DNA of 54,241 nt from a virus: IMG/VR virus record IMGVR_UViG_3300021961_000134, positions 1 to 54,241 of that record, one strand, 5' to 3'. The first letter of the stretch is position 1. Each line of letters begins with the position of its first letter. The position numbers were made by a program, and so were the translations under genes. This document shows, piece by piece, positions 2,713 to 29,812 of the stretch. Under the pieces are notes generated by a model. The model saw only the letters and a list, made by a program, of their open reading frames with translations. It was not told the DNA's origin and ran no database searches.

Positions 2713-2735
2713 CATTACAATATTTGGTGGTAATC

Positions 2736-5403: not shown

Positions 5404-5404
5404 C

Positions 5405-7427: not shown

Positions 7428-7816
7428 AGTTAACTATTGATAGTCAAATATATGGGTTCACTTTTCTTATGTATGGTCAAATGATATTTGCTCATATGTT
7501 TGATAATAAAGAAAATGCTGAATGGGGCAGAATACAACCGTGTTTAAAGAAAATACACAGTGAATTAAATAGATCGAATAAAGACCTAGGATACAAAAGA
7601 GCTGTAGAATATAATGGGATGTCACCAATTACATATGATGGATTTCATGATTTGTATTACGTTTTCTATTGTATGTCAAATTACAGGGTTCCGGAAATAA
7701 GAATAGGACCAAATGCACAACTCGATCAAGAGAATAGAATCATGCATATGGTCCTATGTAACGTGTGTAGAAAATCACACAAAGATTATAATAGATGGAT
7801 ATCTAGATTTATTTAG
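7424..7816 (+). CDS. Unknown 130-aa protein ending the rightward island
   Basis: I do not recognise this protein. It has a hydrophobic N-terminal stretch (IYGFTFLMYGQMIFAHMF) that is too polar for a confident membrane helix, and a C-x2-C-containing C-terminus (LCNVCRKSHKDYNRW). It begins with an ATGA overlap with the methyltransferase-like gene. It ends overlapping the stop region of the convergent oxygenase gene by eight bases, leaving no room for a terminator. It belongs to the same operon as the glycosyltransferases. Confidence 0.6.
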   Translation: MKLTIDSQIYGFTFLMYGQMIFAHMFDNKENAEWGRIQPCLKKIHSELNRSNKDLGYKRAVEYNGMSPITYDGFHDLYYVFYCMSNYRVPEIRIGPNAQLDQENRIMHMVLCNVCRKSHKDYNRWISRFI

Positions 7817-8672: not shown

Positions 8673-9492
8673 TAATTAATCCTTCATCTTGTTGTCTTTT
8701 TGGTAATGTAAAATGGTGAATAATTTTTTCTTCACCTTTTAATTCACTGTCTCTATACCCCCTGATGAAGTTCCATTTAGGATCTATTTCCATGATCCTT
8801 ACATTATAATTTGTATAAAAATTTGTTCGCCAAAAGGCATACGTATCCCAAAACCACAGGGACTTCGGATGAGGGTATTTCCAATCCTTCTTACTCTCAA
8901 TTTGTTCTCTATAATTATCATACCAAGCATGGAGCATTTCAAGGACGTTTGGTTTATTCCTATAAAGGAACATACCACAGTGCCACATTAATCTATAGAC
9001 ACCGTTCTTTGCGTTTTCTTCCCAAGAGTGAACTGCATAAAGTGGTTTGCCATTTTTTTCATCACCACCTTCCCAGATCAACTCTTTGTCTTCTTGCTTA
9101 TAATGTCTCAGTTCTTTATCTTCTGTAAAATAAACTACCTTAGCATTATACGCTCTATTTATTGTCATAGACATATCGTGATCATCATCAATCTGATCAA
9201 AGATATATTTAATATCTTCTGATTCACAATAAGTATCTGCATCCATATAACAAGTTAAATCATATGGTGTTTGATCTAAAGCCCATAACTTAGCTCTACA
9301 ATGAACAGGAATATTAGTAATAATATTCTCAAAAATTAATGGGTCTCTTCTTTCATCTACCCACTCTTTGTGAGTAAACAAAGTTAACTTTGCTTCAGGC
9401 CAATAGTCCTTAATAGACATAGCTGACATAACAGCAGCATCATAATAAGGCTTTGTTAATGAAGCAACATAAACAAAACCATTATTGCTCAT
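8623..9492 (-). CDS. GT-A type glycosyltransferase (4 of 4)
   Basis: This 289-aa protein begins with a typical GT-A nucleotide-binding layout (GFVYVASLTKPYYDAAVMSA) and has a DxD-type motif D84-A-D86 in DLTCYMDADTYCES, as in GT8-like enzymes. Further on are YRLMWHCGMFLYR and a Trp/Tyr-rich acceptor region (KSLWFWDTYAFWR). The late HHF motif in KIIHHFTLP resembles the metal-binding histidine seen near the C-terminus of such enzymes. It is not a close copy of the three tandem enzymes on the other strand. It overlaps the upstream charged-protein gene by 11 bases and is co-transcribed with the fibre genes. Confidence 0.7.
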   Translation of the reverse strand: MSNNGFVYVASLTKPYYDAAVMSAMSIKDYWPEAKLTLFTHKEWVDERRDPLIFENIITNIPVHCRAKLWALDQTPYDLTCYMDADTYCESEDIKYIFDQIDDDHDMSMTINRAYNAKVVYFTEDKELRHYKQEDKELIWEGGDEKNGKPLYAVHSWEENAKNGVYRLMWHCGMFLYRNKPNVLEMLHAWYDNYREQIESKKDWKYPHPKSLWFWDTYAFWRTNFYTNYNVRIMEIDPKWNFIRGYRDSELKGEEKIIHHFTLPKRQQDEGLINDPNIRNSVGSFDVFK

Positions 9493-10228
9493 TTGTTGCA
9501 GCCTGCTCTTTCTTCAATTGTTCTAATGCAACTAAAGCTCCAACATATGCTGTGACTTCCATAATAGATTTAGCTTTTCTAATTTGAGATTTAACTTCTC
9601 TATTTTGAGCATCAGCTACAATAGGAATTTCAAATGCTTCAATCTTAGCTTGGAAAAGATCTTCTTGTTTACGCTTAGTATCCATTTCCTTCATTTCATC
9701 TTCTTCACGCTTACGTAGACGATTGATCTTATTGATTTCTCGTTTAGTAGCGTCATTAATTTGATCTTCAGTAAATGTTTTCTTTACCCAGAACCAAGCA
9801 GCAGCATGCTGCTGAGATTTATCTATTGTATGATTCTGAACTGAGTTATCAGGCATTCTTAAAAAGAATGTGATTAGGTTTCGAGCATCATTACCATAAA
9901 ATGCGTAAATTAATTCACCGTCACCAAAAGGATATTCTGGTTGTTTTTGTTCTTCTTCAGCCACTTTTAATTCACTCCTTTTCTTCAAAACGTCATCTTT
10001 AGACATACTAACTATATTATCTCTATTATTAGCTAACTGCTCCATCAAAATAGTTTCTTTAGTAGATGATTCATCGTGAGGAAGGCCAGATCCTTCGATC
10101 TCCTTCCTCCCACGATTTACTCTATAGTCGAGGGAACGGTTGGCCTGATCTGCTTCAGTGCCAACGTCTTCAAGCATTACTTTAAATCCGTGATCTTCAG
10201 GATTTATCTCTAAGCTACTCTCACCCAT
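9482..10228 (-). CDS. Charged 248-aa protein downstream of the giant fibre gene; candidate fibre chaperone
   Basis: I do not recognise a family. The protein has a hydrophilic N-terminus (MGESSLEINPEDHGFKVMLE) and then a compact middle (FGDGELIYAFYGNDARNLI) with a Trp-containing AAAWFWVKKTF segment. A long charged stretch from about residue 160 (KINRLRKREEDEMKEMDTKR) should be alpha-helical or coiled-coil. The C-terminus is rich in Ala, Leu, Gln and Lys. Its start lies 19 bases inside the end of the giant fibre gene, and a late promoter sits just upstream. In T4 and other phages the gene immediately after a distal fibre gene often encodes an assembly chaperone or adhesin, so that role is inferred from position only. 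Confidence 0.6.
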   Translation of the reverse strand: MGESSLEINPEDHGFKVMLEDVGTEADQANRSLDYRVNRGRKEIEGSGLPHDESSTKETILMEQLANNRDNIVSMSKDDVLKKRSELKVAEEEQKQPEYPFGDGELIYAFYGNDARNLITFFLRMPDNSVQNHTIDKSQQHAAAWFWVKKTFTEDQINDATKREINKINRLRKREEDEMKEMDTKRKQEDLFQAKIEAFEIPIVADAQNREVKSQIRKAKSIMEVTAYVGALVALEQLKKEQAATNEQ

Positions 10229-13200
10229 AATGTATAACTATCCTCTTCACCAGCACCATAACTACCTGCATACGTATTTATATATGCCTTTTGATAAGTT
10301 GCATCATATCCTCTATTGAAAACACCTACGTAAGTGTTTTCAAAGTATCCTGTAAACACACCACTGTATGTCGTAGTATATGTTTTAGTGTACGTATATT
10401 CACCTTCGTATGTCTTAGTCCATATCTTGGTAAAGTCACCTGAATCTAATGTATATGTTTTAATATAATCTGTTACGAAATTTGTGCTGTATACTTTATT
10501 ATATTCTTTAACATAATTAGTATCTAATTGATATGAATTTTGATATACTGTTGTCCAGTTCTTAGCGTAAGTAGCTTCATATGATTTTTCATAATCCGTA
10601 TCACCAACATATACTTTATCCCAGTTGCCTATGTAAACTTTTTCCCACGTCTTATCATATGATTTATCAAAATTTACACCGCCTGCATAATCTTTACTAT
10701 AAGTCTTTACAAAGTCATGGTCAACGAGAGTTGTGTATGTTTTAGTGTAATCGAATTCTTTATTGTATACTTTCTCCCATGTCTTCTCGTAATCTTTGTT
10801 CCATACTTTGTCGTATGCAGCCTCGAAGTTTACAGGAGACGAATATGTACCAGTCCAATCTTGCTGATATAACTTTTGCCAATCTTTTAAGAAAGCCCCT
10901 GTATAGGTTTTTGAGAAAGGCTGATCAGATGAATAACCTCCATCGTAAGATTTTTCATAATCTTTATTCCATACCTTAGAATATGTTTTTACAAAATCTA
11001 CGTCGCTTACATATTCACCAATATAAGTTTTTTCCCATGCCTTTTCGTATTCCTTAGTATATGTTTTATCAAATGAGTGAACTGATGTGTAAGTTGCGAT
11101 ATAATCAAAAGCAAAGTTGGCTGAATACGAAGCTTCATATCCAGTAGAATAATCCATATAACCTTCATATGTTGCTTCATAATCTTTAGACCAAGTACCT
11201 TCATATGTACCTTGCCATAATTTTGAGTAATCTACATCACTAACATATTCACCAAGATATAATTTATTGTATTGACCGACATACAATTTATTCCAACCAC
11301 GCTCAAAGTTTACATCGCCAACGTATTGACCAGAATAATCAGTACTATAGGTCGCAACGTATTCTTTATTATATGCTCCAATGTACCCTACTTCACCAGA
11401 CCATGCTTTGTCATAAGCTGCTATATACTCAGCTTGATAATCCTTTGCATAACTTCCAGTATAGTCACCTGAGTAATCTTTTTGGAAGTTGGATTCATAA
11501 GAAGCCACGTATGTTTTTGTCCAATCACCAACATATAACCCAGCAAAATCTCCTTCATAATTTCCAGAGAATGATCCGGAATAATTTCCTACGTACGTAC
11601 CTTCATAGTCTTTTGAGAATCCGCCTGAATATTCACCCTCAAAGTTTTGAGAATATACACCCATCCAAGCTCTATCATATGTCTTTACATAATCTGTTTC
11701 ATAACTTTTTATGTAATCTCCAACATATGTTCCTTCGAATAACGATGAGTATGTACCTTGGTAAGTAGTTGTCCAGTTCTTTGCAAAGTCACCTTCATAT
11801 GTGCCAGCATATAATTTAGAAAATTCTCCTGTGTATACTCCAGCAAAATCATGTGACCATAATTTGTTGTATGTATGCTGATATTCTTTAGCATATTCTT
11901 TTTGGAAATGTCCAACATACGTACCTTCAAAATCTTTAGACCAAATTGTGGTGTAAGCAGCACCATATTCTTTAGTAAATGATTTTTCATATGTCTTTAA
12001 ATATTCTTTTATATACTCTCCAGTATAATCACCGTCATATGATCCTGTATAATCTACAGAATATGTTTTTTCATATCCGCGATCGTAAGCGTGGAGATAT
12101 TCTCCTTGATAAGTTCCTTCAAACAGTGATGAAAACTGACTGCTATATGTTCCTTCATATTCTTTTACATAAGTTCCATCATATTGTTTAACATAATCTT
12201 TGTTAAACTGACCAGAATATGACTTTTGATATAGACCCAAGAAATTGGATGAATATGTTTTGTTCCAATCACCTATATAATCTTTGTTGTAGTCACCTTC
12301 ATAGGTTCCTTCAAACAAAGAGGCAAAAGAAGATTCATAGTTGCCAAGGTATGTTTTAGTATAAGTACCACTCCATTCATGAACATATACTTTGTTCCAA
12401 TCCTTAGAATATGCTTTTACATAGTCACCTTCATACGTACCTTCAAACAATGACGAGAATGTTTGATCGTAGGACCCTTCATATTCTTTAATGTATATTC
12501 CAGACCAATCTTGCGAATAAGTTTTTACCCAGTTCTTAGTATACGCTTTTACATAATCGCCTTCATAAGTACCTTCCCACATCTTTTGATAGAGAGCAAG
12601 ATATGTACCTTCATATGTTTTAGTATATGCACCTTGATAGGTTTTTTCATATGTTTTTTCGAACCCACCAATGTATGTCTTTTCATATTCACCAGACCAG
12701 TCTTGAGAATAGGTTTTTGTCCATTCTTTTTGATACAGACCTGCATACTCTTTAGTGTAGTCACCATCATATGTTTTAGTATAGATACCAGAATATGTTC
12801 CTTGATACTCTTTAATGTATGCTTCAACATAATCTTTAACGTATGTACCAGAATATTCTTTTACATATACGCCCTCATACTCATTTGCATATAGAGCAGT
12901 ATATGTTTTTTCATATGTCTTGTCGTAATCTTTAGCAAAGTCTGAACTGTATACACCTTCATATGCGCCTTGATACAAAGTTGTGTAAGTCTTTTCGTAG
13001 TTCTTGTCCCAGCTTCTTTCAAAGTTTTTATTAAATATACCAGTATAGTTTCCTGAGTAATCACCTACGTAAGTTTTTACATAATCTTTAGCCCACAGGC
13101 GAGTCCACAATCTATCATACGAACCTTCATAGGTACCTTCATATGTTGTATCATAATTCTTTAAATAGTTCTTATTCCAGTTGTGAGTGTACACACCTGT

Positions 13201-16200
13201 GTACGTACCTTCATATGCACCTTCCCAGTTCTTTGTGTAAGTTCCGACATAATCTTTTACCCAAGTATTATTAAATACACCAGTATATTGACCCGTGTAG
13301 TTACCAGCCCATGCTTTATTATAGAGAGTAGTATATGTCTTTTCCCACGTATTGGCAAAGTAACCAGTGTATACACCTGAGTAAACGCCAGTATAAGCGC
13401 CTTGATACAACTTAGCATACAGCTTTTCCCAGTTATGTGTATATACGCCAGTATAGTTACCTGAATAATCTCCAGCATATTCGTTCGCATAATTTTTAAT
13501 ATAGTTAGCTGTATAGTTACCGGTAAAGTATCCAGTATATGTTCCATCATAATAACCAGTATACACACCAGTATAATCACCAGAATATGCAGCTTGATAT
13601 GTCTTAACGTAATCCTTGTTCCAGATTCTTACCCAGTTCTTTGTATAATTGCCTGTATAGTAACCTGTATATACACCGGTGTAATCGCCAGCCCAGTTCT
13701 TAATATAGTTACCAGTGTAGAAATTTTGATAGTACCTTCCAAAGTAACCTGTGTATGTTCCATCATAATAACCAGTATACACACCAGTATAAGCACCAGC
13801 CCAAACCTTAGCATAGGTCTTTACATAGTTTGCTGCAAAGTAGCCTGTGTATGTACCAGTGTATACACCGGTGTAAGCACCAGCCCAAGCCTTCGCATAT
13901 GTTTTGTCGTAATTGTTACCAAAGTAACCTGTGTATGTACCAGTGTATACACCAGCCCAAGCCCTAGACCAAACCCTTACATAATCCTTGTTGTACGTGT
14001 TATTATATGTTCCAGTATAGTAACCAGTATATGCTCCAGAGAAGTTTCTTGCATAGTTGGCCCCGTAGTAGTTAGGATAGTATCTACCAAAATATCCTGT
14101 ATAGGTTCCCGTATAGTATCCAGTATAGGCACCGCTGTAAACACCAGCCCACGCTCTTACCCAAGCTCTTACATAGTTCTTACTATAGTTTCCTGTAAAA
14201 GTTTTAGCCCAAGCCCTTGAATAAATTTTAGCATAACTATTTGCAAAGGTCGTATTTCCACTAAAGAATCCTGTAAAATAACTAGTCCCTTGATAATAAT
14301 TTGGATTAAGGTATCCAGCATAGTAAATGTTACCGTAGTACATTGTTCTACCATAGTTACCAGAATAACTTCTTCGGTAATTTGGAGAGAGGAATCCACC
14401 GTAGTAAATATTACCGTAGTATAATGGACCTAGCCATGTCTTTGCCCAGTTTTTAGTATAGTTAGCAGTAAAGTATCCAGTGTATACACCTGTCCACACT
14501 CTGACATAATCTTTGTTGTATGTTCGGTTATAATATCCTGTATAAAATCCAGTATAATATCCAGTATAAGCTCCAGAATAGTTACCAGCCCAGTTCTTTA
14601 AATAATCCTTTTGCCATACCTTAGCAAAGTTGCCTGTATAGGTTCCAGTGTAGTATCCTGTGTAAACGCCTGTCCAAGCCTTTACATATCCCTTAACATA
14701 ATTCTTACTATAGTTACCGGTATAGTATCCAGTATATGCACCTGTATATGCACCAGCCCAAGCCTTAGCATAGGTCTTTACATAGTTAGCAGCATAATAC
14801 CCAGTATAGGTACCAGTGTATACACCGGTGTAAGCACCTTCCCATGCCTTAGCATATGTTTTGTTATAATTGTTACCATAGTATCCGGTATATACACCTT
14901 CATAGTTACCTACATACGTACCGGTATATGCACCAGCCCAGTTCTTTAAATAATCTTTTGTCCAAGTTTTTGCATAGGTGTTGGCAAAGTATCCTGTGTA
15001 AACACCGGTATAGTTACCCGCATATACGCCAGTGTATACATTATCATAAGAAGCATCGTACGATTTAACATAGTTTTTTGACCAGTTGTGTAAGAAAGTA
15101 CCAGTATACACACCAGTATAGTTACCTACATACGTACCGGTATATGCTCCTTCCCAAGCCTTTGACCAAACTCTGTTCCATATTCTAGCCCAAGAGTTTG
15201 CAAAATATCCTGTAAACGTACCTGTGTAAACACCAGTATAGGCACCTTGCCACAATCGCGACCAGTCTCTTCCCCAGTTTTTGGTATACACCCCAGTGTA
15301 GGTACCTTCATATGCTCCAGCATATGTTGTATCGTAATTCTTATTCCAGTCTTTAGAATAATCAGCTGAAAAGTATCCAGTAAACACACCAACGTAGTCA
15401 CCAGAATACGTTTTGTCGTAATTCTTTAGCCAATTTTTGGAATAGTTGTCAACATAATAACCTGTAAAAACTCCTGTATAATCACCGCTATAATCACCAA
15501 CATAAGTCTTTACGTAATCTTTGACCCATGTGTGAGCAAAGTATCCAGTATAGATACCTGAATATTCATTTGCATAAACTGCTTCATAATGCTTTTCGTA
15601 ATTTTTATCCCAGTTTTTCTGATAGACACCGGTGTATGTACCTGCGAAGTTACCTTCGTAGTTTGTTAGATAAGACTTGACATAGTCTTTGTTCCAAACC
15701 TTTTCCCAGTTTTGATTATAAACACCAACAAAATCACCAGTATAGTGTTTGGTATATGTCTTAACATAATCTTTATTCCAGTCCCTTGACCATTCCCCTT
15801 GATAAAGACCAGCGTATTCTTTGTTGTATGTACCAGTATAAGACTTTACATATGCATGCTCGTATGCAGCTTTATAAGTTGTAGTGTAGGTTCCCTCATA
15901 GGCGCCTTCGTATTCTTTATTGTATTGGCCAACATATAATCTGTTATAGATACCTTCGTAATGTGCTTCGTAAGCCTTATTATAATCGCCCGTGTAAGTA
16001 CCTTCGTAGTGTTTACTAAAGTCACCAGAATAATCCTTTACATAATCTTTGTTGTATTCACCGAGGTACGTTGTATCAAACGTACCTGTCCAAGCTCCAA
16101 TATAGTCCCCTTCATAAGTTCCGGACCACAGCTGAGAATAGGTTTTATTGTATATTGTTACATAATCTTTATTGTAATCGCCAATATACGTACCTTCATA

Positions 16201-19107
16201 ATCGCCTTGGTAGATACCAGCAAAAGCTCCAGTAAAGTCGCCTTCATAATTGCCCGCCCAAAGATGAGAATATGTTTTGTTGTATTCTGTGGTATATGTT
16301 TTAGTATAATCGCCTGCATATCTTCCAATGTAAGCCTTATCATATGACCCAATAAACAGACCTACGAAATCTCCCTCATAGTTACCTGCCCACAATGTTG
16401 AGTAAGTTTTTTCATAAGTTTTGGAATACGTCTTTACGAAATCACCTTCGTATGACCCTTCATAATCTTTTGCAAAATCACTGCTATATGTTGCTTCATA
16501 TGCTCTTAAATATGTACCAGTATAATCACCTACATATATTCCAGAGAAGTCACCAGTGAAGTCTCCTTCGTAGGTTCCAGCCCAAAGATGGGAATACGTT
16601 TTAATATAATCCTTAGAATATGTCTTATTGTAATCGCCTTCATATGTTCCTTCATAAGACTTGGAATATGAACCTTCATAGTGACCAAGATAAGTTTTTA
16701 TAAAACCGCCAATGTAATCCGTGTTGTAAGAAGTTCCATAACTTGCAGAAAAATGTCCTGTATAATTACCAGAAAAATCCCCACCATACAATTTATTGTA
16801 GTTATGCGAATAATCTTTTTGATATGCTGCTGCAAATTGACCGGTATATAATCCTATAAAATCTCCAGACCACGTACCTTCATATGTACCTTCAAAATCT
16901 TTTGCATATATTGTTGTCCAGGTTTTAACATATTCACCAGTGAAATCGCCTTCGTAATTTCCAGCCCAATCTGTAGAATAGGTCTTGTCATAATTTTTTG
17001 TATAGGTTTTTAAATATTCACCTGTGTAAAAACCAGAGAATTGACCAGTGTATTCACCTAAGAACTGGCCACTGTATTCCCTATTGTATATACCTAGCCA
17101 ATCTCGTGAAAATGTTTGACTATAGACACCTTCGAAATTCTGACTGTATATGCCCTCATAATTAGTTGAATAAACTTTGTTCCAATCTTTAGCAAACGCC
17201 CCAGCATATTGTACCTCTACTATTCTATTATATGTTTTATCATATGTTTTTTCGTAGTCTTTATTCCAGGATTTCTCATATGTTCCAACAAAATCTACTG
17301 GAGAAGAATAAACACCTAAGTATGTTTTAACATAATCTTTATTCCAGTCACCAACATACGTGCCTTCAAAAGCAACTGGACCAGCATACAATGTTGAATA
17401 TGTTTTAACATAGTCACCATCATAAGTTTTTTCATAATCGCCCTGGAATGTTACTGCTGATGTATATGTTGCTTCGTAATCACCAGCGTATAACGTATTG
17501 TATTCTTTAGCATAAAGTTGTGAATATTCTAATGGACCATGATAAGCTTCACCCCAATCCTTTGAAAATGAGCCTTCGTAAGTTGCTTCATATGCTTTAT
17601 CAAAAGAATGAACTGATGTGTATGTTTTAACATAATCATATTGATATTGAGTATTGTAATCTGTCTTGTATTCTCCTGCAAAGGTAACAGCAGAAGTATA
17701 TGTTTTTTCATAATCAGTATTATATGTAGCTTCCCAATTTCTTAAATAAGTTCCAACAAACTCTACTTGTCCGAGATATGTTTTAGTGAAGTTCTTTTCG
17801 TATGATGCACCATAATCTTTAACATAATCTCCAGTATATGATCCATCGTAGCCTACTTCACCTGCCCATTGTTTGTTGTATAAAGTAGTATAAGTTTTTT
17901 GATATAGGGTACTGTAATCTGCAGCATATCCTGTTGTTCCAACATAAATCGTACTCCATTCTTTGGCATACGATCCTGTGTATGTTGTTAAATAAATTTG
18001 TTCAAAGTTCACATCGCCCTGGTAGGTTTTAATATAATCAGCTGACCAAAGTTTAGCGTAATCCCCACCATAATGTTTTATATAATCTGTTTCTAAATTA
18101 TATGCTTTAATATAATCTTTATTGTAATCAGCACTATAGGTTTTTGTCCAATCGCCAGTATAGTATTGATCTAACACATATGTCTTTAAATAATCTTTAG
18201 AAAAATTACCTTCGTATGATTGATCATATGCTTTCAAGTAGTGCTGGTCAGTTCTAGAATATACAGTTTCATAATCAGTAGAATAAGATTCTAATGCAAG
18301 ATAGCTTTTACTCCAAATTCTATCGTATGTACCTGTGTATTGACCAATCCAGTTGGTAGTATAAGAGCCTTCGTATTCTTTAGTAAAAGATAAAGCATAA
18401 TCGTCTACATAATCTTTAGCCCATGTTTTACTATAAGTTGTAGCTCCAATATCTCTAACTGTACCTCTCGCTTCCCATGTACCAACGACAGGAGCAGATG
18501 CACCAATGAAATATTGACCTACACCGGTATCCACAATCCTCTGTCTAAGTCTTTCAGTAAAGAACGATTGTATTTGGGTATTAGTAAATTGTTTAAGCGT
18601 ATTGTCGTCTGATATTAATAGAGGATAAATTGCTGTTGCTGACGAAGAGTTGGATGTTCTTCTTCTTAAATAATAAGTAGTACCACCAGACTCGTTTATA
18701 GTATTGATAGTTGTATATAATGTGTTTGAACTATCACTGGTTAAAATATATGATCCTATACCATTAGACACCATGTTAGATATCATTGTGTCTACTAGGC
18801 TATTAAGAGTAGATGTATTAGCTTCTTCGATAGTAGTGTTAAAAACTACATAACCAGATACATCAGAAGTATTAGCAGTAGAAGATAAGTTCTGAGTTAG
18901 CGACGAATTAGTGCCACCAACATCTACTAGTATACCAGCATTTGATCCTAAATCTGTAGAAAAACTAATTGCACCAGCTAATGTATTATTAGATGCAAAA
19001 CTAGTTAAAGTTTGCTCAATAATATGATTCAATTCTATGGATGGCATTTCTTGCAATGCAATCCAACTTCCACCACCCGTTGTTTTAATTTTTAGTGGAT
19101 TGGCCAT
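10210..19107 (-). CDS. Giant aromatic-tetrapeptide fibre protein 1 (2965 aa)
   Basis: Residues 1 to about 222 form a non-repetitive head starting MANPLKIKTTGGGSWIALQE. From Y225 to about residue 2950 the chain consists of tetrapeptides with Tyr, Trp or Phe at every fourth position (for example YTGVYTGTYTGYF and YVKTYAKAW). Gly or Lys is favoured at the third position. The chain ends with a short tail, SYTLWVRVA. Phase breaks of six residues occur mainly near both ends. The centre carries two copies of a YYGNIYYGG...PNY element. Size, lack of enzyme motifs and location among tail and fibre genes indicate a structural filament, probably a very long tail fibre. AAGGA precedes the ATG. No known fold is obvious. 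A function other than fibre, such as adhesion or a surface sheath, remains possible. Confidence 0.85.
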   Translation of the reverse strand: MANPLKIKTTGGGSWIALQEMPSIELNHIIEQTLTSFASNNTLAGAISFSTDLGSNAGILVDVGGTNSSLTQNLSSTANTSDVSGYVVFNTTIEEANTSTLNSLVDTMISNMVSNGIGSYILTSDSSNTLYTTINTINESGGTTYYLRRRTSNSSSATAIYPLLISDDNTLKQFTNTQIQSFFTERLRQRIVDTGVGQYFIGASAPVVGTWEARGTVRDIGATTYSKTWAKDYVDDYALSFTKEYEGSYTTNWIGQYTGTYDRIWSKSYLALESYSTDYETVYSRTDQHYLKAYDQSYEGNFSKDYLKTYVLDQYYTGDWTKTYSADYNKDYIKAYNLETDYIKHYGGDYAKLWSADYIKTYQGDVNFEQIYLTTYTGSYAKEWSTIYVGTTGYAADYSTLYQKTYTTLYNKQWAGEVGYDGSYTGDYVKDYGASYEKNFTKTYLGQVEFVGTYLRNWEATYNTDYEKTYTSAVTFAGEYKTDYNTQYQYDYVKTYTSVHSFDKAYEATYEGSFSKDWGEAYHGPLEYSQLYAKEYNTLYAGDYEATYTSAVTFQGDYEKTYDGDYVKTYSTLYAGPVAFEGTYVGDWNKDYVKTYLGVYSSPVDFVGTYEKSWNKDYEKTYDKTYNRIVEVQYAGAFAKDWNKVYSTNYEGIYSQNFEGVYSQTFSRDWLGIYNREYSGQFLGEYTGQFSGFYTGEYLKTYTKNYDKTYSTDWAGNYEGDFTGEYVKTWTTIYAKDFEGTYEGTWSGDFIGLYTGQFAAAYQKDYSHNYNKLYGGDFSGNYTGHFSASYGTSYNTDYIGGFIKTYLGHYEGSYSKSYEGTYEGDYNKTYSKDYIKTYSHLWAGTYEGDFTGDFSGIYVGDYTGTYLRAYEATYSSDFAKDYEGSYEGDFVKTYSKTYEKTYSTLWAGNYEGDFVGLFIGSYDKAYIGRYAGDYTKTYTTEYNKTYSHLWAGNYEGDFTGAFAGIYQGDYEGTYIGDYNKDYVTIYNKTYSQLWSGTYEGDYIGAWTGTFDTTYLGEYNKDYVKDYSGDFSKHYEGTYTGDYNKAYEAHYEGIYNRLYVGQYNKEYEGAYEGTYTTTYKAAYEHAYVKSYTGTYNKEYAGLYQGEWSRDWNKDYVKTYTKHYTGDFVGVYNQNWEKVWNKDYVKSYLTNYEGNFAGTYTGVYQKNWDKNYEKHYEAVYANEYSGIYTGYFAHTWVKDYVKTYVGDYSGDYTGVFTGYYVDNYSKNWLKNYDKTYSGDYVGVFTGYFSADYSKDWNKNYDTTYAGAYEGTYTGVYTKNWGRDWSRLWQGAYTGVYTGTFTGYFANSWARIWNRVWSKAWEGAYTGTYVGNYTGVYTGTFLHNWSKNYVKSYDASYDNVYTGVYAGNYTGVYTGYFANTYAKTWTKDYLKNWAGAYTGTYVGNYEGVYTGYYGNNYNKTYAKAWEGAYTGVYTGTYTGYYAANYVKTYAKAWAGAYTGAYTGYYTGNYSKNYVKGYVKAWTGVYTGYYTGTYTGNFAKVWQKDYLKNWAGNYSGAYTGYYTGFYTGYYNRTYNKDYVRVWTGVYTGYFTANYTKNWAKTWLGPLYYGNIYYGGFLSPNYRRSYSGNYGRTMYYGNIYYAGYLNPNYYQGTSYFTGFFSGNTTFANSYAKIYSRAWAKTFTGNYSKNYVRAWVRAWAGVYSGAYTGYYTGTYTGYFGRYYPNYYGANYARNFSGAYTGYYTGTYNNTYNKDYVRVWSRAWAGVYTGTYTGYFGNNYDKTYAKAWAGAYTGVYTGTYTGYFAANYVKTYAKVWAGAYTGVYTGYYDGTYTGYFGRYYQNFYTGNYIKNWAGDYTGVYTGYYTGNYTKNWVRIWNKDYVKTYQAAYSGDYTGVYTGYYDGTYTGYFTGNYTANYIKNYANEYAGDYSGNYTGVYTHNWEKLYAKLYQGAYTGVYSGVYTGYFANTWEKTYTTLYNKAWAGNYTGQYTGVFNNTWVKDYVGTYTKNWEGAYEGTYTGVYTHNWNKNYLKNYDTTYEGTYEGSYDRLWTRLWAKDYVKTYVGDYSGNYTGIFNKNFERSWDKNYEKTYTTLYQGAYEGVYSSDFAKDYDKTYEKTYTALYANEYEGVYVKEYSGTYVKDYVEAYIKEYQGTYSGIYTKTYDGDYTKEYAGLYQKEWTKTYSQDWSGEYEKTYIGGFEKTYEKTYQGAYTKTYEGTYLALYQKMWEGTYEGDYVKAYTKNWVKTYSQDWSGIYIKEYEGSYDQTFSSLFEGTYEGDYVKAYSKDWNKVYVHEWSGTYTKTYLGNYESSFASLFEGTYEGDYNKDYIGDWNKTYSSNFLGLYQKSYSGQFNKDYVKQYDGTYVKEYEGTYSSQFSSLFEGTYQGEYLHAYDRGYEKTYSVDYTGSYDGDYTGEYIKEYLKTYEKSFTKEYGAAYTTIWSKDFEGTYVGHFQKEYAKEYQHTYNKLWSHDFAGVYTGEFSKLYAGTYEGDFAKNWTTTYQGTYSSLFEGTYVGDYIKSYETDYVKTYDRAWMGVYSQNFEGEYSGGFSKDYEGTYVGNYSGSFSGNYEGDFAGLYVGDWTKTYVASYESNFQKDYSGDYTGSYAKDYQAEYIAAYDKAWSGEVGYIGAYNKEYVATYSTDYSGQYVGDVNFERGWNKLYVGQYNKLYLGEYVSDVDYSKLWQGTYEGTWSKDYEATYEGYMDYSTGYEASYSANFAFDYIATYTSVHSFDKTYTKEYEKAWEKTYIGEYVSDVDFVKTYSKVWNKDYEKSYDGGYSSDQPFSKTYTGAFLKDWQKLYQQDWTGTYSSPVNFEAAYDKVWNKDYEKTWEKVYNKEFDYTKTYTTLVDHDFVKTYSKDYAGGVNFDKSYDKTWEKVYIGNWDKVYVGDTDYEKSYEATYAKNWTTVYQNSYQLDTNYVKEYNKVYSTNFVTDYIKTYTLDSGDFTKIWTKTYEGEYTYTKTYTTTYSGVFTGYFENTYVGVFNRGYDATYQKAYINTYAGSYGAGEEDSYTLWVRVA
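10275..10282 (-). promoter_or_regulatory. T4-type late promoter (TATAAATA) inside the 3' end of the giant fibre gene
   Basis: A perfect minus-strand TATAAATA lies about 47 bases upstream of the start codon at 10228. It would let the charged protein, glycosyltransferase and oxygenase genes be transcribed without reading through 18 kb of repetitive fibre genes. It is embedded in codons of the last fibre repeats, so chance cannot be excluded. Confidence 0.5.
14291..14340 (-). repeat. Fibre element YYGNIYYAGYLNPNYYQ, copy in giant protein 1
   Basis: Fifty bases here match 24308-24357 in the other giant gene with a single mismatch, while most repeats differ at many synonymous sites. The element reads YYGNIYYAGYLNPNYYQ. 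A related copy (LYYGNIYYGGFLSPNY) lies just upstream at about 14380-14437. Together they sit near the midpoint of the array of giant protein 1. Confidence 0.85.
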
Positions 19108-19116
19108 TAATATTCC

Positions 19117-22100
19117 TTACTGGTATTTGTATGTGGTATCGCCCAAGATGTTACCTTCATATATGAAGCTAACATTATTTATGTCGAACCCAACCACGGC
19201 TGCTCCAGGAAGTCCCCCATCACCGCAGTTATGGAATCTAGATTTTCTTCTAAATTCTTCGCCACCACCCATACCAACTTGGCCTAGGTTACCACCAACA
19301 CCACCAGGTAATCTCGTATTACCATAATCATAATTTGGCTGTCCTCTTAAACCGCCATTGATTAAAGTTCCGTTACGAGGCTCTACTTTAAGCTGAGCAC
19401 TTTCATATTTTGAACTTTTAGGTGAAATACCAACAGTCCACCCAGCACCACCTGACCCTGGTACACCTACTATGTCTGAAGTACCAAAGAATGATCTATT
19501 AATTTCTTGAAGATAGTTTGCACCTTCATATGTTCTTGCATATGATCCTACATATGCTTTAGAGTATGTCGCACCATAAATCTTTACATAACTTTTAGCA
19601 TAATCAGCAACAAACTCATTCGCATAAGAACCTGCATAAATGTGGGTCCATGCTTTAGTATATGTTGCAGAATAATTTGCATTTCCTAAGTAACTTGTTG
19701 AGAGATGGAAGACGCCAGTATATGGAGTTAAACCAGAATACAAAGTTTCATTAAGGTATGCACCACCATAGTAAATATTACCATAATAAGCAATTGCAGA
19801 ATAACTTCCTGTATACGTTCTAGTCCAATTACCACCAAATGCACCACCACCAAAGTATACTGGACCTAGATAACTAATACTACCCGACCATGTCTTATTG
19901 TACACTGCTGTATAACTTTTGCTATAATACCCTACAAACACATTAGCATACGACGCTTGCCAATTTTTACCATATGTTTTTGACCAATTTTTAGCATAGT
20001 CTTTACCATAAGTTTGATCAAAGTAAAGCGCGCTAGTTGCAGTATAGTAAGCTGTCCATGCATATGCATTTTCATATGTTACACTATACACAGCCTCGAC
20101 TGCATGATAAGATTCTGGAGTTGTTGAATATGTTGTTCCATAATCATCAGTCCAACCTAATGCACTAGTATATCCTACATATGTGGTTTGATATCCAGCA
20201 GCCCAAATTTTGTTATAATCAACATCTAATGCTGTTGAATATTCGCCAGTATAATTTGTAGATATATTATAATTAACTTCACTTCCGTAATTACCACCAT
20301 AAGGAGCAAATGTATCTGCAGATTCATAACCGTTATATAATAAAGAAGCTGCTCTTGAATATCCTTGAAGACCTTCGTACCCAACGATTCTTACTCTATT
20401 GTAATTTACTGAGTATGATTTATTATATCCTTTGAGATATTCTTTTGTATATGTTCCACTATATTCAGCAGTGAATGTAACATTATAAGATTTTGTATAG
20501 TTACCAACGTATTCAGCTATATACTCTCTTGCATATGTATCCTGATAATCTCCAGTAAAGGTTCTAGAATAAGAACCGGAATAATTTTTTGTATATTCCT
20601 TGTTGTAGGTTTTTGAGAAACTACCTTGATAGGATCCAACAAACGCTTTTGTATACTCCTTAGTAAAATCTCCAACATATGCAGCTGTATAATCTACGGA
20701 ATATTCAGCAACAAAATCCCCTGCATATGCGTTGTATGTTCTATCATAAGATTTACTGTAGGTTTTTTCAAATGTTTGTTGATATGTTGCTTCGTAAGAA
20801 CCTAGATATGTACCTTCAAAGGCTTGTGTATATAATTTATTATATTGTTTTACATATGTAGCATCGTAACTACCAATATAAGCCCCTACAAAATTGCTTT
20901 GATAATACCCTCCACCATATGCACTTGGTTCACTACTATAAGATTTCTGATAATGCCCTACATATGTAACATTATAAGAAACATTATATTCTTTGGTATA
21001 CAGACCTTCGAAGCTAGCAGAACTACCTACAGTAAGATAAGTTTTATTAAACTCACCTGAGTAAGCTCCAGCATATGCTCTTTCAAATGATCTCTCATAC
21101 TCTGTACCCATGTAATAAACTGTTCCACCATATACTGTTACGCCAGAATAAACTCCAGTAAATGATGTAGTATTGTAATCATTAGTATAACCCTTTGAGT
21201 AATTTGTACTAAAGGTTTTTATAAATTCATCGCTCACTCCAGCATAAATTGTACTTGAAACATATGTGTTGTATGATCCGCCATAATTTGCTGTATAACC
21301 TGGTACTGACGTATATGCGGTTACTGTTCCAACATAATTTCCACCGGACCAAGATCCAGTAAACGCTTGAGCTGGAGTATAAGCTCCAATATAGGCTTTA
21401 ACATATTCAGTCTTGGTATATGTATGCTCACCTACGTATGTTTCAACTACACCTGGATATGAACCAGCAATACCATCCCTTCCTTCAGCATAAGATGCTT
21501 GTCCAACATATCCACCTACATAATTCTTTACATAATCAACACCGTAGTTTGCACCACCACCACTATAACCTAGATACGATTGATAGTATAATAATCCGGA
21601 ATATTGTTTTGAATAAGGAACAATGAACTGGCCCCCAACAGCTTCAAAGCTAATAGCATATGTTCCAGTATATGTTTTGCTGTATGTTCCTGAATACGCT
21701 TTAGTATATCCTTTTTCATACGAGCCAGCATATGTTCCTATAAAACTGCGACTGTATCCACCAGTATAAGAACCTACATAAGTTTTTAAGTATGATCCTA
21801 GATACGTACCTAAAAATTCTCTGTTGTAGTATATCGTTCCTGTATAATGTTTTACGAAGTTACCAGTAAATATACCAGTATAGGTCTTTACATAATTTTG
21901 ATATCCCCCACCATAATAAACTTCTGTACCATAACTTAAAGCAAATGTTGTTGTGTTTAAGAACCCAGCTCCAGATGCATAATTACCAGTAAAATAAAGA
22001 GTTCTCGAATAATAATTAGGATTAAGATATCCTGAGTAGAAAACATTACCATAGTAAGCTACTGTTCCATAACCGGGGCCTACAAAGTTTCTTAGTGAGT

Positions 22101-25100
22101 TGTATCCGTTGAAATATTCAGGTGCTGATTGGTGATATGTAGTAATAGTGTTTCCGTAATATATTAAGCCAGTGTAGTTCGTTGCACTATAACTTGGACC
22201 GGAAGCGTATGATCTTGGACCTTGATACGTATTAGTATAAGTGCCTTCAAAATGTCCTACATAGGTTTTAGCATATTGAATTTGGCTTATATAACCACCA
22301 TAATAAAGTATACCAGCAAAGTTTCCTGTATAGGATCCAACATAAGATTTTAAATAATGTTTTACATAGTTACCATCATATACACCAGTATATGAACCAG
22401 CATAAGCACCAGTAAAGTTTCTTTCAAAATTATCAACATAGGTTTTATTAAACACGCCAGTATATGACTTTGCGAACCCAGCCCCAGAATAATAATTAGT
22501 AAATACATTTGTAGGAACGTATTCTGTAGCATCAGCTCCGCCCTGCCATACTCTACCAAGATACGTTGCTTGATAAACACCAGCTTGATCTGAATATGGA
22601 TCAGTAATACCAGAGGCACCACCACCTCCACCGCCACCACCTATTGTCCCATAGTTTTCTATGAATAGATGAACATCTGAACTTGAAGTTTTGATAGCAT
22701 CGCCACCGTTTGTACCAGAATATGACAAACCTCTTGGACCACCAATGTCGCCACCGTTACCACCTTTACCTACAATGTAACCACATGGATATGTGACAAC
22801 TCTTACAAGATGTTTTAGGTCTGCAGTTGTTGATCCAGACACGTTAGCTGTTACTGCCTGCATAGTGCTTAAATCAAGTGAGGAAGAAGTACTTCCATCT
22901 GATCCTAAAATAAATGTCTTGCTATGTTCTAATTGTTCACCTATAAAAATGTTAACCATCTGAAGGTTTTTATCTGGATCTTTACCTATTGAAAATAAAT
23001 AATCTCTGAGGTTAAAGTTGTTTATGTAGTATACAATCTTTCCGTCAATATAATCACTACCTCTTGAAGAACCTGCATTTTCAGAAATTAGTCGACCATT
23101 ACTATTAAATATGATGTCTGTATGATCATATCCAACATATGCGATTTTCCAATCGCCACCTTCTTTAACATTAATATATCTAACTTGTTTCCACGAATCC
23201 TCTTGTTGTACAAACATATTCTTTACAGATTGCCAACTACTGTCGTTCATAACAAACAACTTAGGATCAGAATTTTGAGTGTTTAATTGACCTGAAGAAG
23301 GACCTACGAAGCTAGTTGTTCCTCTGTAAACTTCTTGTCTTGTTAAATTACCGGTATAGTTTTTAACAAATTCAGTTTGACCTGTGTATGAAGGTTGGAA
23401 CGAACCCTGGAATTCAGACAAATATGTTTTAGTGTAATATAACAAGCCTTCATAGTTAGTAGATCCAGTATAATCCCCTACATATGCTGCGACAGGGGAA
23501 TATGAACCTAGCCAGTTTTTAAGGTAATCACTAGAATAAGCACCAATATAATTTTTATTGTATGATTTGTCGTAGTTCGTAGATGTAACTTTTGTATATG
23601 TACCAGTGTAGGCCTTTTGCCATATTTTAGTATATACACCTTCCCATGAATGCACATATGAAGCCGAATATGTACCTTCATATGTTTTAACGTATGAAGT
23701 GCCATCCCCTCTATATGCTTTAGCATATAACTTTTCAAAGGAACCCGTATATGATCTAGAATATATTTTGTTGTAAGCAACAAAGTTTTCTATTCTTTGT
23801 GTTGTATAATTTCTAGACCAAACTTTAGTATAAGCCTTGTCGTATGATTTACTATAAACTTTTTGATAGTATGCATAGCTTTCAGATATATATGATCTTG
23901 CATATAATTTGATATATTCACCTGCGTATTCTTTACGGTACCCACCTGTAAAATTACCGAGGTAAGTTCCATATGCAGGGCCCTCTAAATAATGTTTATT
24001 ATAATTTGTAGACCCAACATATGCTTTGACATATTCTTTATTAAAATCAGCTGAAGGTCTGTATGTCTTTTGCCAGTTCTTAGTATAATTAACTAAAGGT
24101 GAGAAGTATACATTAAATGTCTTTGTAAAGTTTGCTTGACCAGCAAAATAACCTGTAAATGTTTGTGCAAATCCACCATAAGTTTTTAGGAATCCATTGT
24201 ATTCCTTAATGTATCCACCAAAGTATGCATCGCCAGAATAAGCTTTTTCATAGCCTTTTATAAAGTTAGCTGAAGCGTTATAGTAACCGGTATAATAAAG
24301 AACCCCCTGATAATAATTTGGATTAAGGTATCCAGCATAGTAAATGTTACCATAGTAAGCTGCTGTTGCATACAGTTTGGCAAAATTTCTTAGGTATCCA
24401 GCAAAATATGCAGTACCAGAATATTCTTTGTTATATGCTCTAGAAAAATATCCAGTTCCAACAAATGAATGAGAATAATTTTTTAGGTACCCACCAAAAT
24501 ATGCAACACCCGTATAAGTTACAGAGTATTCTTTTGTGTATGATTTAAGGTAACCACTGTAGTATGGTAAACCTGAATAAGTTTTATTATAATCTTTAGC
24601 GTAGGTTTTAATATATCCAGCATAAAAAGCATCGCCCCTGTAAGATACATTATAAGTTTTATTATATTCAGCGAGTCGTACACCACCAAAATACGCATCC
24701 CCAAGATAAGCCCTAGACCAATATATTAGAGTGTAATTGGCTCCTGAATATCCACTAAAGAATAGAGGACCTATAAAGTCCTGATTGTAAACACCAGAGT
24801 AATATTTATTAAATACTCCAGTCCATATTCTACTGTATTCCTTAGTGTAACTTAATGTTCTAGAATAACCACCAAAGAAAAGAGGACCAGCATAATCTTT
24901 AGTATATGAGCCTACCCAAATCTTATTATATGTTGTAGACCAGTTTTTAGCATACTCTTTAGTATAGACGTTCTGATTAGACCACCCACCAAAGTATATG
25001 ACAGGACCGTGGAAAGATCTTGCATAATCAGGACCTGAAAAAGTACCAGACCATAGTCTTAAATATTCTTTGGAATAGTATCCTGATTCACTCGTGTACC

Positions 25101-28100
25101 CACTGTAGTACGTTAAGCCTCTATAAGCTCTATCAAACGTACCACTCCAAACTTTATTATATGCTTGATCAAATGTTCCTGTATACACTGCGTCATAATT
25201 TTTAGTAAATGTACCAGAATAATTTGTCGTTATGTCACCAACATATGTTGCTACATAGGTCTTTATATACGATCCTAAAAACGTTCTTGAATAAGCTGCC
25301 TGCCAGGATGACGTATATACAGAACCCCATTCTGATGTATAATATCTAATACCTGTCCAGTTTTTAGAATAATATGCAACTCCAGAATAGTTACCACCAA
25401 GTGCACCATAGTTTTTAATAAATTTAGCAAAAATGCCACTATAATTTTTGCTATATGTTTTTGTATAATCACCTACATATGTCTTTTCATAGTTCTTAAC
25501 ATAGTCTTTATTGTATTCACCAAGGTAATTTTTAGTATAAGTTTTTTCATATGAACCTTGGTATACTGCAGTGTATGCTTTTACATAATCAGCACCATAT
25601 TCTTTTACGTAATTCTTACTATATGCACCTTGATATGTTTTTGTATACGTCTTATTGTATACATTAGAATATACACCATCCCATGTTCTACTATATTGTT
25701 TTGTATATTCTTTATTGTACGCTCCTTCATATGATTTACTATATCCTGCAACAAATGTTTGAACATAATCCCCTTGATATGTGTGTGAATATATCCCTTG
25801 GAAAACTTGTTGATAAGTTTTTTCATATTCTCCTACCCATACTTTAGCGTAGGCTTTGTTGAATTCATTACCATAATCACCAGCATATATTGTAGTGTAT
25901 ACTGCACCGTATTCGCCAATATAAGTTTTATTATAATCTTTGACCCAAGCTGACTCGTATGTCTTTACCCAGTCTTTACTATAATATCCTGTTTGAGCTG
26001 CATATGCTTTAACATAAGTTGTAGTATAAGTTTTGTCGTAATTTTTAGTCCAGTTTCTATCATAATTTGCAGTATAAAATCCAGTAAAGGCACCTGAATA
26101 TGTCCCTGTAAACACACTACCAAACGAACCTTCCCAAACCCTATCATAATTTTTAGTCCAGTTTCTGGAATATGTTAAAGACTGAATATATCCTTGGTTG
26201 AAGTATCCTGTATAAACACCTGACCAAATTCTTTGATAATTCTTAGACCAAACCTTTGTATAAGATAGAGACTGAATATATCCTCGGTTGAAGTATCCTG
26301 TGAAAACTCCAGTGTAAGCACCTTGCCATATCTTGTTGTAATCTTTGTTGTAGGCAGTAGTACCAGCAAAGAAACCTTGGAAAGCTAAAGCAAACCCAGA
26401 AAAATATGCATTACCAGAATACGCTTTAGAATAATCTTTTAAAAATGATCCAGTGCCTGTGAAGAATCCAGTAAAATATTGTACTGATTGATAATAATTG
26501 GGATTAAGGTACCCCGAATAATAGATATTACCATAATAAGCTGTTCCAGCAAACGTCCTAGCATATGATCTGGAATACCCAGCATAGTATGCTATACCTG
26601 AATATTCTTTAGTATATTCGCCAGAAAAGTATCCGGTTCCAACATACCAACCAGAAAAATTTCGTTGATAGTTAGGAGATAGAAACCCACCGTAGTAAAT
26701 ATTACCATAATATAAAGGGCCTATATATGTTTTTGTATATGTTTTATTCCAATCATGTATGAACACACCAGTATATGTACCAGCATATGACTTTACCCAT
26801 GTTCTGATATATCCATTATAATTTGCATTACCTAGATATGATGTAGTCCAATCCCTAGAATAATCATTTGTGTATCCACCGGTGTAGTTTCCTGCCCAAG
26901 CTCTAACCCAAGTTCTAAGATATCCATTATAATTTGCATTACCAACATACGCTGCTTCATAATTAATATTATATGTTTTATTAAAAGAACCTACAAAAGA
27001 GTTTCCCCAATCGTGGGTAAAAGCACCAGTATATGTTCCTGACCACACCTTTGAATATGTAGCAGTATAAGTTGTACTGTATGTTTTGTTCCAGTCTTTT
27101 GTATACGTGTTTAAGTAGTCTGTTTCTGGTAACCCAACATATGTTCCAGAGTAGGCCTTTAAAAAGGTTCCATTATATGTTGTTAAATATGACTTAGTAT
27201 AATCACCAGCCCATACACGATCATAAGATTTGGTATACAATCCCTGGAATATTTGTGCATATGTTTTAGTATACACCGCATCATAACTTCCAGCATATAC
27301 TTTGTTGAAATCTCCAACATATTCACCGCTATAGTCTTTACTGTAAAATGCAATGTAGGTATGATCATAGTTTTTACTATACGTCTTTACGTATATACCA
27401 GCATAGTTAGTGGTGTATGTTTTGTTGTATTCTTTTTCATACGAACCGACCCAATCTTTATTGTAGGTCTTTTCATAGTTTTTACTGTATTCCCCAAGAT
27501 AAGTTTTGACATAATCTTTAGCCCACAACTTAGAATATGCAGTGTTGTAATCTTTAGAATATTCACCTAGATAATTTTTATGATATACTGATTCATATGA
27601 ACCTGTATATGTTGCAACATAATTTTTAAGATAAGTTTTACCATATTCCCCTTGATATAACTTTAAATAATTTTTAACATATGTGCCTTCATATATTAAA
27701 GCACCAAAAGAAGTTAGTCCGCTGTAATCACCTGTGTATTGAGTTGCACCACCCTCAAAGTTAATTATTGCAACATAACCTGCGGTACCAGCATAATCAG
27801 CAGTATATTGTGGGGCGCCATAATCTTGCAGACCTGAGTATGCTTCTGATATTTGATAATTAGCAGTATAGGTAACAACGCTAGTATAGTTCTTAGCATA
27901 TTCTTTATTGAATGCTAGCTCAGATACCCAAGCTGCTTGTCCTTCATAGGTTTTACTATAACCTACGTAACCACTATATTCTCCTAAAAACCCTTCTGAT
28001 ATTGTTACTATTCCAGAATATGAACCAATACCTACATATGCTCTAGAAAACTGGGTATACCCAGTATAATACTCACCAGAATAGCTTTGGTAGCTTATTG

Positions 28101-28860: not shown

Positions 28861-29154
28861 TCAGGAGTATACTTGGTACCAGATATCTCCATTTGCTCCA
28901 CCACTGGGAGCATCTGTGCTCACATAAACAACATATGAAGAAAGGTTATTTGAATCGCCACCGAAGTTAACTGAGGTCTTCTGAATCTCTGCTACACTTA
29001 TAGAATTAACTATACCTTTATCTGTAACATTAGCTGTTACAGCAAATGTTGTATTTCCAAACTCTCCAGTTGTAATACCAGTATCGGGAAGGGTACTTAT
29101 TTGTACGTTGGCTGAGCTATTAACAATCTCAACACCTGCGACTTTAAGAGCCAT
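28861..29154 (-). CDS. 97-aa fibre-associated structural protein
   Basis: The protein starts MALKVAGVEIVNSSANVQIS and is rich in Val, Ser, Thr and Asn. It ends with a tail typical of marine phage fibre proteins, in which a D-A-P-S-G-G-A-N-G-D-I-W-Y segment appears (TDAPSGGANGDIWYQVYS). That G-D-I-W-Y ending is common in short fibre or adapter proteins. GGAGGA lies just upstream of the ATG, inside the end of the S74-domain gene (11-base overlap). It is immediately followed by the giant fibre gene, so it may be a connector between baseplate and fibre. The function is inferred only as structural. Confidence 0.6.
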   Translation of the reverse strand: MALKVAGVEIVNSSANVQISTLPDTGITTGEFGNTTFAVTANVTDKGIVNSISVAEIQKTSVNFGGDSNNLSSYVVYVSTDAPSGGANGDIWYQVYS

Positions 29155-29812
29155 TCGAGTCCTCCAGAACTTTTATTCTTTTTGAAAGATCTTTAATTGC
29201 CTCTAACAATAAAGGAATCAAAGATTGATATTTCACAGCCAAGTTTCCGTTTCCGTTTGTTTCAACAAGGAATGGAAGCATCTCCTGGACTTCCTGAGCA
29301 ATAACACCCAAATCAGTTTTACCGTCTTTTTGATCCCCTGTCTTCCACTCAAATATATATCCATTTAATTTTTCGAGGATGTCAACTGGATTCTCAATTA
29401 TTCTTATGTTATCTTTAAGGTTTCTATCTGAGGAATAATTAGCTTCAACGTCTCCTGTTGCAAACAAGTTACGTACATGAGTGTTACCAAATTGATAAGC
29501 TGCGGATCCTAAATCATATGAATTATTAGAAGTAGGAATTATATTAGAAGATAGTCCTAAAGATGTAGCTACTGATACAGTACCACCCCTAATAGCATCT
29601 ACAGCAGTAAATGTGTTAGCTGAAAATACACCTTCAACATGACCATTACCTGTTGTGGTAGTATGGTTAGTTGAGTTAGGCTGAGCGACAGCTCCTACTG
29701 TAACAATGATTGTACCAGCATCATAAACTAGCTGGTTAGTTCTAACTCTCCATTCGTCAAATGTATCAGTCGAAGCTATTACATTTGCGCCTAGGTATGT
29801 AGTTTTGGCCAT
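29144..29812 (-). CDS. Fibre protein with C-terminal peptidase S74 chaperone domain
   Basis: This 222-aa protein has a short beta-rich front part, including the SYDLGSAAYQFGNTHVRNLF motif that is very common before S74 domains. An intramolecular chaperone domain starts at about residue 127. The self-cleavage dyad is visible as S128 and K133 in SSDRNLKDNI, with the same five-residue spacing as in phage endosialidase. After it come LNGYIFEWK, DLGVIAQEVQEMLPFLV and a C-terminal LIPLLLEAIKDLSKRIKVLE coiled coil. Such domains trimerise the fibre and then cut themselves off. The mature fibre would be only about 127 residues, so it may be a small tip or serve another fibre in trans. Confidence 0.9.
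   Translation of the reverse strand: MAKTTYLGANVIASTDTFDEWRVRTNQLVYDAGTIIVTVGAVAQPNSTNHTTTTGNGHVEGVFSANTFTAVDAIRGGTVSVATSLGLSSNIIPTSNNSYDLGSAAYQFGNTHVRNLFATGDVEANYSSDRNLKDNIRIIENPVDILEKLNGYIFEWKTGDQKDGKTDLGVIAQEVQEMLPFLVETNGNGNLAVKYQSLIPLLLEAIKDLSKRIKVLEDSNGS

Follow-up and report, generated by a model that had tools for sequence, protein, structure and literature searches.

Introduction

According to the available part of one published description (PMC7029224), pelagimyophages and cyanomyophages carry a "host recognition cluster" with tail fibres between VrlC and the neck gene gp14. In Gp38 adhesins the receptor is bound by variable loops flanked by Gly-rich motifs (PMC12892980). We analysed a 54,241-nucleotide stretch of DNA (the window; IMG/VR record IMGVR_UViG_3300021961_000134) from an uncultured T4-like virus, in which two giant open reading frames, proteins 1 and 2, are filled with aromatic residues at a period of four. 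Arrays of this kind were not found described in the open-access literature.

Locus organization and partner genes

Genes on the minus strand followed the order baseplate hub, wedge proteins, VrlC, S74 fibre, protein 2, protein 1, a 248-aa protein, a glycosyltransferase (GT), an oxygenase-like protein, more genes and a head-tail adaptor (Table 1). The two giant genes were neighbours on that strand and their reading frames were intact. The same gene-by-gene succession recurred on a 128-kb contig (G001), where both giants had homologues. Given a locus bordered by VrlC and the head-tail adaptor, and the Gp38 domain of protein 2, both giants are very likely tail fibres or adhesins. A 97-aa ORF (window 28861-29154), which separates the S74 fibre from protein 2, was weakly similar to the end of the tail-fibre family phrog_14064. 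The interval from the fibre cassette to the head-tail adaptor contained further genes on the plus strand (window 2724-7816); the product of one of them (3283-4224, plus strand) had a CxxxCxxC radical-SAM-like motif, and several neighbours looked like sugar or nucleotide enzymes. A 10.5-kb contig (L248) encoded a GT identical to that of the window and probably represents a second assembly of this virus. When a host was sought in bacterial genomes, a single MAG contig labelled Bifidobacterium breve was obtained; it was set aside as a probably misbinned virus.

The search with the partner GT gave at least 579 confirmed loci. Genes of the 248-aa type and oxygenase-like genes were present in 80 of 80 GT-selected loci, and all 67 of these loci with at least 1.2 kb of upstream sequence carried an array (46 cases) or, in the other 21, the N-terminal domain of protein 1, with a variant repeat where it was read. 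The small protein, the GT and the oxygenase-like protein are a near-obligate cassette downstream of the protein 1 family. Among phage records, Phage C48C1 alone matched the GT and the oxygenase-like gene. When the GT profile was compared with the PDB, glycogenin-1 chains were the best matches (E 0.003), weakly and over about 90 residues, and Pfam matches fell below cut-off. Glycogenin-1 is a self-glucosylating tyrosine enzyme, and a glycogenin-like identity of the partner GT is taken only as a lead. In the oxygenase-like protein, H136-x-N138...H214...R222 was invariant in 22 members; set against the HxD/E...H...R facial triad and cosubstrate residue of 2OG-Fe(II) oxygenases, N stands in place of D/E, and no Pfam match was obtained.

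Table 1. Features of the fibre locus, with positions in the window and the basis of each assignment.
Feature	Position	Strand	Basis or remark
Head-tail adaptor	752..1492	-	Downstream border of fibre locus; phrog_211, E 2e-44
Putative 2OG-Fe(II)-oxygenase-like partner	7809..8672	-	Invariant H-x-N ... H ... R; without Pfam support
Glycosyltransferase-like partner, invariant DxD	8623..9492	-	Best PDB matches of its profile are glycogenin-1
248-aa conserved partner, possibly an assembly factor	9482..10228	-	Homologue in 80/80 GT-selected loci
Protein 1, 2965 aa	10210..19107	-	N-terminal domain, array and C-terminal LWVRVA motif; predicted single giant mirror-symmetric hairpin
Protein 1 C-terminal motif, residues 2951-2965 (SYTLWVRVA)	10213..10257	-	Common to family
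Protein 1 returning arm, residues 1621-2950	10258..14247	-	Stem finder, mirrored interruptions, covariation
Protein 1 tip, residues 1559-1620, non-periodic, LGPLYYGNIYYGGFLSPNY...YYGNIYYAGYLNPNYYQG	14248..14433	-	Mirror centre 1587.5
Protein 1 outgoing arm, residues 229-1558	14434..18423	-	Stem finder pairs 229-1558 with 1621-2950, 312 aromatic pairs; mirrored interruptions
Protein 1 N-terminal domain, residues 4-219	18451..19098	-	New "PLKI...EMSDAEI...GTW" family, 78 ORFs; hmmsearch --max 115 bits; 4.5e-29 in full ORF set
Protein 2, 3243 aa	19117..28848	-	Predicted hairpin arrays and Gp38-type adhesin domain
Protein 2 Gly-rich domain, second half, residues 3128-3197	19258..19467	-	phrog_11439 positions 672-742, E 5e-4
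Aromatic array of about 1,043 residues within Gp38-type domain, residues 2085-3127	19468..22596	-	phrog_11439 resumes at 672 beyond the insertion
Protein 2 Gp38-type Gly-rich domain, first half, residues 2010-2084	22597..22821	-	Pfam GP38 35 bits (cut-off 25), profile 51-120; phrog_11439 positions 601-667
Protein 2 predicted stem, returning strand, residues 960-1140	25429..25971	-	Pairs with residues 390-570
Protein 2 predicted stem, outgoing strand, residues 390-570	27139..27681	-	46 aromatic pairs with residues 960-1140
Short tail-fibre protein, S74 endosialidase-type chaperone domain	29144..29812	-	PF13884 E 7e-15 and tail PHROGs
VrlC-like baseplate protein	30025..36504	-	Upstream border of fibre locus; phrog_358; tblastn to annotated VrlC

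Period-four aromatic arrays

Pairs of Tyr, Phe or Trp at lag 4 numbered 635 in protein 1 against 177 expected (composition shuffles: mean 177, sd 10, max 199) and 464 in protein 2 against 168 expected (shuffle max 191); at lags 1, 2, 3 and 5 such pairs were depleted. These counts confirmed the preliminary description, in which an aromatic residue had been seen at every fourth position of two proteins of 2965 and 3243 aa. Gly or Lys, which it had reported as favoured at position three, occupied that position in 74% of protein 1 units. Its statement that both proteins consist almost entirely of such tetrapeptides held for most of protein 1, where 2,564 of the 2,965 residues fell within chains of at least five units and unbroken chains reached 232 units (residues 634-1558) and 238 units (residues 1621-2569). 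Protein 2 was less regular, with a longest chain of 47 units and 1,448 of its 3,243 residues in chains. Neither giant was purely repeat: protein 1 has an N-terminal domain of about 220 aa and a short C-terminal motif, and protein 2 includes the Gly-rich domain of Gp38 type. In the basal parts of both arms of protein 1 (residues 270-640 and 2569-2900) a 26-residue super-period was observed, made of five 4-residue steps and one 6-residue step (e.g., YTSAVTF or YVSDVDF).

Protein 1 was rich in Gly, Thr and Asn and lacked Cys. The coiled coil and collagen, which had been argued against at the outset, were rejected for this protein. Against a heptad, aromatic pairs at lag 7 were depleted (36 vs 176) and those at lags 4, 8 and 12 enriched; against Gly at every third position, the period of four was strict, and the protein had 13 Pro in 2,965 residues. 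The profile search that had been proposed for a named repeat family found none in Pfam, PHROG or PDB.

Mirror symmetry of protein 1

When protein 1 was reflected about residue 1587.5, 92.4% of its 706 array aromatics landed on aromatics, compared with a mean of 0.42 and a maximum of 0.50 in gap shuffles, a generous null since long runs get broken. The best forward shift (translation) reached 0.68 vs 0.92 for reflection. In a stricter control, in which the order of the right half was reversed, the score was still 0.81, at a different centre, so the weight of the mirror case rests on matched breaks and covariation. Neither the symmetry nor the interruptions of the period had been part of the preliminary description. 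Eleven left-arm breaks (336, 362, 388, 414, 444, 470, 496, 522, 548, 574 and 600) were the exact mirror of breaks at 2833, 2807, 2781, 2755, 2725, 2699, 2673, 2647, 2621, 2595 and 2569, and the sole 30-residue spacing among them was mirrored too. Some right-hand breaks (2647 and near 2781) were cut into two shorter steps by additional aromatics.

Residue identities covaried in reverse pairing when the sum of the two 0-based positions was near 3171-3179, and scarcely elsewhere. Phe-Phe pairs at sum 3177 numbered 25 vs 5.3 expected (z 9.8), the best of 502 centres, with the next best at 3.6. Gly-Gly and Lys-Lys covariation was found at sums 3173 and 3177, and covariation of the aromatic with the position-3 residue at sum 3175. 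Trp-Trp pairs were avoided across the mirror (1 vs 6.7 expected, P 0.004). In the tip third of the protein Phe-Phe covariation was not visible (1 vs 1.4) and Gly-Gly covariation was. As read from the sequence, this is the covariation that direct and diagonal neighbours would leave in an antiparallel ribbon whose direct register is 3175. A reversed protein cannot be produced by DNA inversion, so that selection on pairing would be the natural cause of the mirror, and a mirror with a single register points to an antiparallel, out-and-back beta-hairpin. DNA-level tandem repeats were few; those of 84-bp period at residues 1406-1478 and 1702-1779 occupied mirror positions flanking the tip, which suggests recent matched growth of both arms near it.

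Relatives of protein 1

Neither the array nor the N-terminal domain matched a family in Pfam, PHROG or PDB, and whole-protein Pfam and PHROG scans returned nothing. Protein 1 was missed by the HMM of its own family at default filters and recovered with the filters off (115 bits); segments were then rescanned. It had the marks of the family: the N-terminal domain, a C-terminal LW/LY/LF-x-R-x-A motif and the downstream trio of 248-type, GT and 2OG-like genes. Pattern scans of IMG/VR gave many further relatives of about 320 to more than 3,000 aa, which have the N-terminal domain and the LWxRxA end in common, together with an array of Y-x-G-x type; a period-4 Tyr DNA pattern mostly returned microsatellites, and the Y-x-G-x pattern did better. 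Six members (L259, L261, L281, L290, L297 and L316) had a variant array on YxG[ST]RTY instead of YTGx, with 6-residue steps mixed with 4-residue steps. A peptide-pattern search for close relatives of the N-terminal domain or tip of the window's protein found none. Among 50,697 phage records, the sole match was the hypothetical protein WJE88074.1 of Phage C48C1 (OQ984149, Kyanoviridae).

The mirror was replicated in relatives. The 1,363-aa homologue of protein 1 in G001 had a mirror score of 0.83 (null max 0.67) with four breaks matched exactly, Phe-Phe pairs at 6 vs 1.0 expected and Trp-Trp at 0 vs 5.6, with the same +4 offset. A 2,645-aa homologue (G015) scored 0.90 (null max 0.49) about a 108-residue tip segment. 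When 47 non-redundant short relatives were pooled, Phe-Phe pairs at the end-anchored register numbered 73 vs 30 expected, and other registers were near expectation. Short members mostly had near-equal arms, down to about 7 units, either side of a central turn, and a non-periodic turn-like segment or small domain lay at the centre of the array in most members. The stem finder combined the aromatic pattern with Phe/Trp preferences learned from protein 1; in relatives outside its tuning, its loops coincided with a Gly/Pro turn, GP[TV][YL][YF]GG, that recurs among them. Several stems rather than one hairpin were found in L331-L333 and G010, no clear whole-length mirror was seen in C48C1 and L189, and L242 likewise did not fit a single whole-length hairpin.

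An AF2 model of a 344-aa member (L140) had an N-terminal domain mostly at pLDDT >90, long strands at both ends of the array (234-258 and 310-342) and a C-terminal tail, STVSLWLRTA, equivalent to SYTLWVRVA, at pLDDT of about 96; the array itself was of low confidence (pLDDT about 40), and strand pairing was deduced from DSSP. Foldseek with this model gave no match below E 0.1 and no known fold. A single-sequence AF2 model of the window's tip was uninformative (pLDDT 28.6) and was discarded.

Protein 2 and the Gp38-type domain

The Gp38 domain of protein 2 became visible only on rescanning of segments, and the homologue in G001 had the same split layout (GP38 39 bits). Judged by these profile matches, protein 2 contains a Gp38-type domain and is not an ordinary Gp38, the full-length contiguous domain being absent. 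Besides the stem in Table 1, a second one was predicted between residues 582-634 and 897-949. In the G001 homologue (L246, 70780-80260), the loop of a predicted 72-pair stem contains a non-repeat segment that, to the eye, looks LamG-like (concanavalin-type). The homologue in G010 (L329, 8800-28799; 3744 aa) directly adjoined a 248-type gene with no N-terminal-domain protein between, and a protein 1 homologue seems to be absent from that locus.

Discussion

Protein 1 is probably a tail fibre or adhesin made of one giant antiparallel beta-hairpin, with protein 2 using the same hairpins and the downstream enzymes modifying or maturing the fibre. The N-terminal domain would form the base of the fibre, and the array would run out for about 1,330 residues, turn at the non-periodic tip (about residue 1588) and return in register, which would allow the C-terminal motif to rejoin the base. 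Within such a ribbon, the aromatic and the position-3 residue would be direct cross-strand neighbours (sum 3175), and aromatic-aromatic and Gly/Lys-Gly/Lys pairs would lie on the diagonals (sums 3173 and 3177). The register would be set by the matched 6-residue breaks and by a preference for certain partners across the strands, in which Phe is matched with Phe, Gly with Gly and Lys with Lys, and Trp is kept from Trp. Each arm could reach about 440 nm if the chain is extended at 0.33 nm per residue. In protein 2 one such array would be inserted in the Gp38-type receptor-binding domain. On the virion, host contact would fall to the tips, formed by short loops or by inserted domains, and the GT and the putative oxygenase would probably act on the fibre. 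More tentatively, the proteins might represent a self-complementary class in which cross-strand matching sets the register over hundreds of nanometres, rather as in a hairpin of nucleic acid, growth proceeds by matched duplications, and a Tyr/Thr-rich ribbon is decorated by a glycogenin-like GT and an oxygenase; we regard this wider proposal as possible but doubtful.

An equal mirror register would result if two fully extended copies of the chain paired in opposite directions with no hairpin, and sequence symmetry alone cannot tell a partner at i/C-i in the same chain from one in a second chain. We consider such two-chain pairing unlikely, given the turn-like segment or small domain at the centre of most arrays and arms that stay near equal down to about 7 units. 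Also against it, the hairpins predicted in protein 2 differ in length and place within one chain, and the L140 model combined a confidently predicted N-terminal domain and C-terminal motif with long strands at either end of the array. The preliminary description had proposed a new fibre architecture, either a beta-solenoid or a stacked-aromatic filament. A new repeat architecture and a long tail fibre were supported by the lack of any library match, the tail-fibre locus and the Gp38 domain, and stacked aromatics could still describe one face of the hairpin ribbon. The beta-solenoid or beta-helix with four residues per side found no support in protein 1: a short strict period and a Gly/Thr/Asn-rich composition with few Pro and no Cys are what such a fold might show, but it predicts likeness at fixed forward shifts, and in protein 1 reflection fitted better than translation and covariation was seen in reverse pairing at one register, leaving this fold with very little credibility.

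The biased composition and the low AF2 confidence in the array would also suit a late product of infection that is no virion fibre and is of low complexity, disordered or condensate-forming. This reading is highly unlikely, because the position between baseplate and neck genes is conserved in many loci, a Gp38 domain and an adjoining S74 fibre gene are present, and the long-range register is exact. Repeats are prone to misassembly, and an assembly artefact or a DNA palindrome was therefore weighed as well; it is practically excluded, since DNA inversion would give a reverse-complement and not a reversed protein, the same layout occurs in homologues from independent contigs, the frames are open and DNA-level tandem repeats are few. 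The hairpin fibre, if correct, would be an architecture not seen before, in which a single chain goes out and back over up to about 440 nm and carries a readable residue-pairing code. It would also point out the receptor-binding tips of uncultured viruses that form an abundant group (at least 579 partner-GT loci), and it would give a natural setting in which to study how beta-ribbons of great length escape aggregation and find their register. The near-obligate modification cassette is flagged by the same loci, and its target is plausibly the fibre.

Several known systems share part of this arrangement. The Chlamydia Pmp proteins likewise carry short tetrapeptide motifs, GGA(I,L,V) and FxxN, in long surface proteins; in the available text of that source (PMC11166332) the motifs sit in beta-helix coils, whereas the units of protein 1 are contiguous and mirror-paired. 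The partner GT has an invariant DxD, and the best match of its profile, weak and over about 90 residues, is to glycogenin-1 among the glycogenin/GT8 enzymes. Protein 2 matched the Gly-rich profile of the Gp38 adhesins of phages S16 and PP01 (PF05268) above the curated cut-off; however, its domain is split by the array of about 1,043 residues, and protein 1 is without a Gp38 domain. The pelagimyophage and cyanomyophage cluster occupies the same VrlC-gp14 locus and holds tail fibres and glycosyltransferases, and period-4 aromatic arrays are not mentioned in the available part of its description (PMC7029224). Neither the array nor the N-terminal domain had a sequence match to tail-fibre families; with T4-type gp34/gp37 and S74 fibres the giants share the genomic position and the presumed role. 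The Phage C48C1 protein (L001 16645-26688), annotated as hypothetical, differs from protein 1 in often having Arg at the aromatic position (SRTRVSSY) and in lacking a whole-length mirror, and its array is broken by several globular segments that are possibly hairpin tips. It resembles protein 1 in its homologous N-terminal domain, its period-4 aromatic array, its YTLYVRVA end and the same downstream genes.
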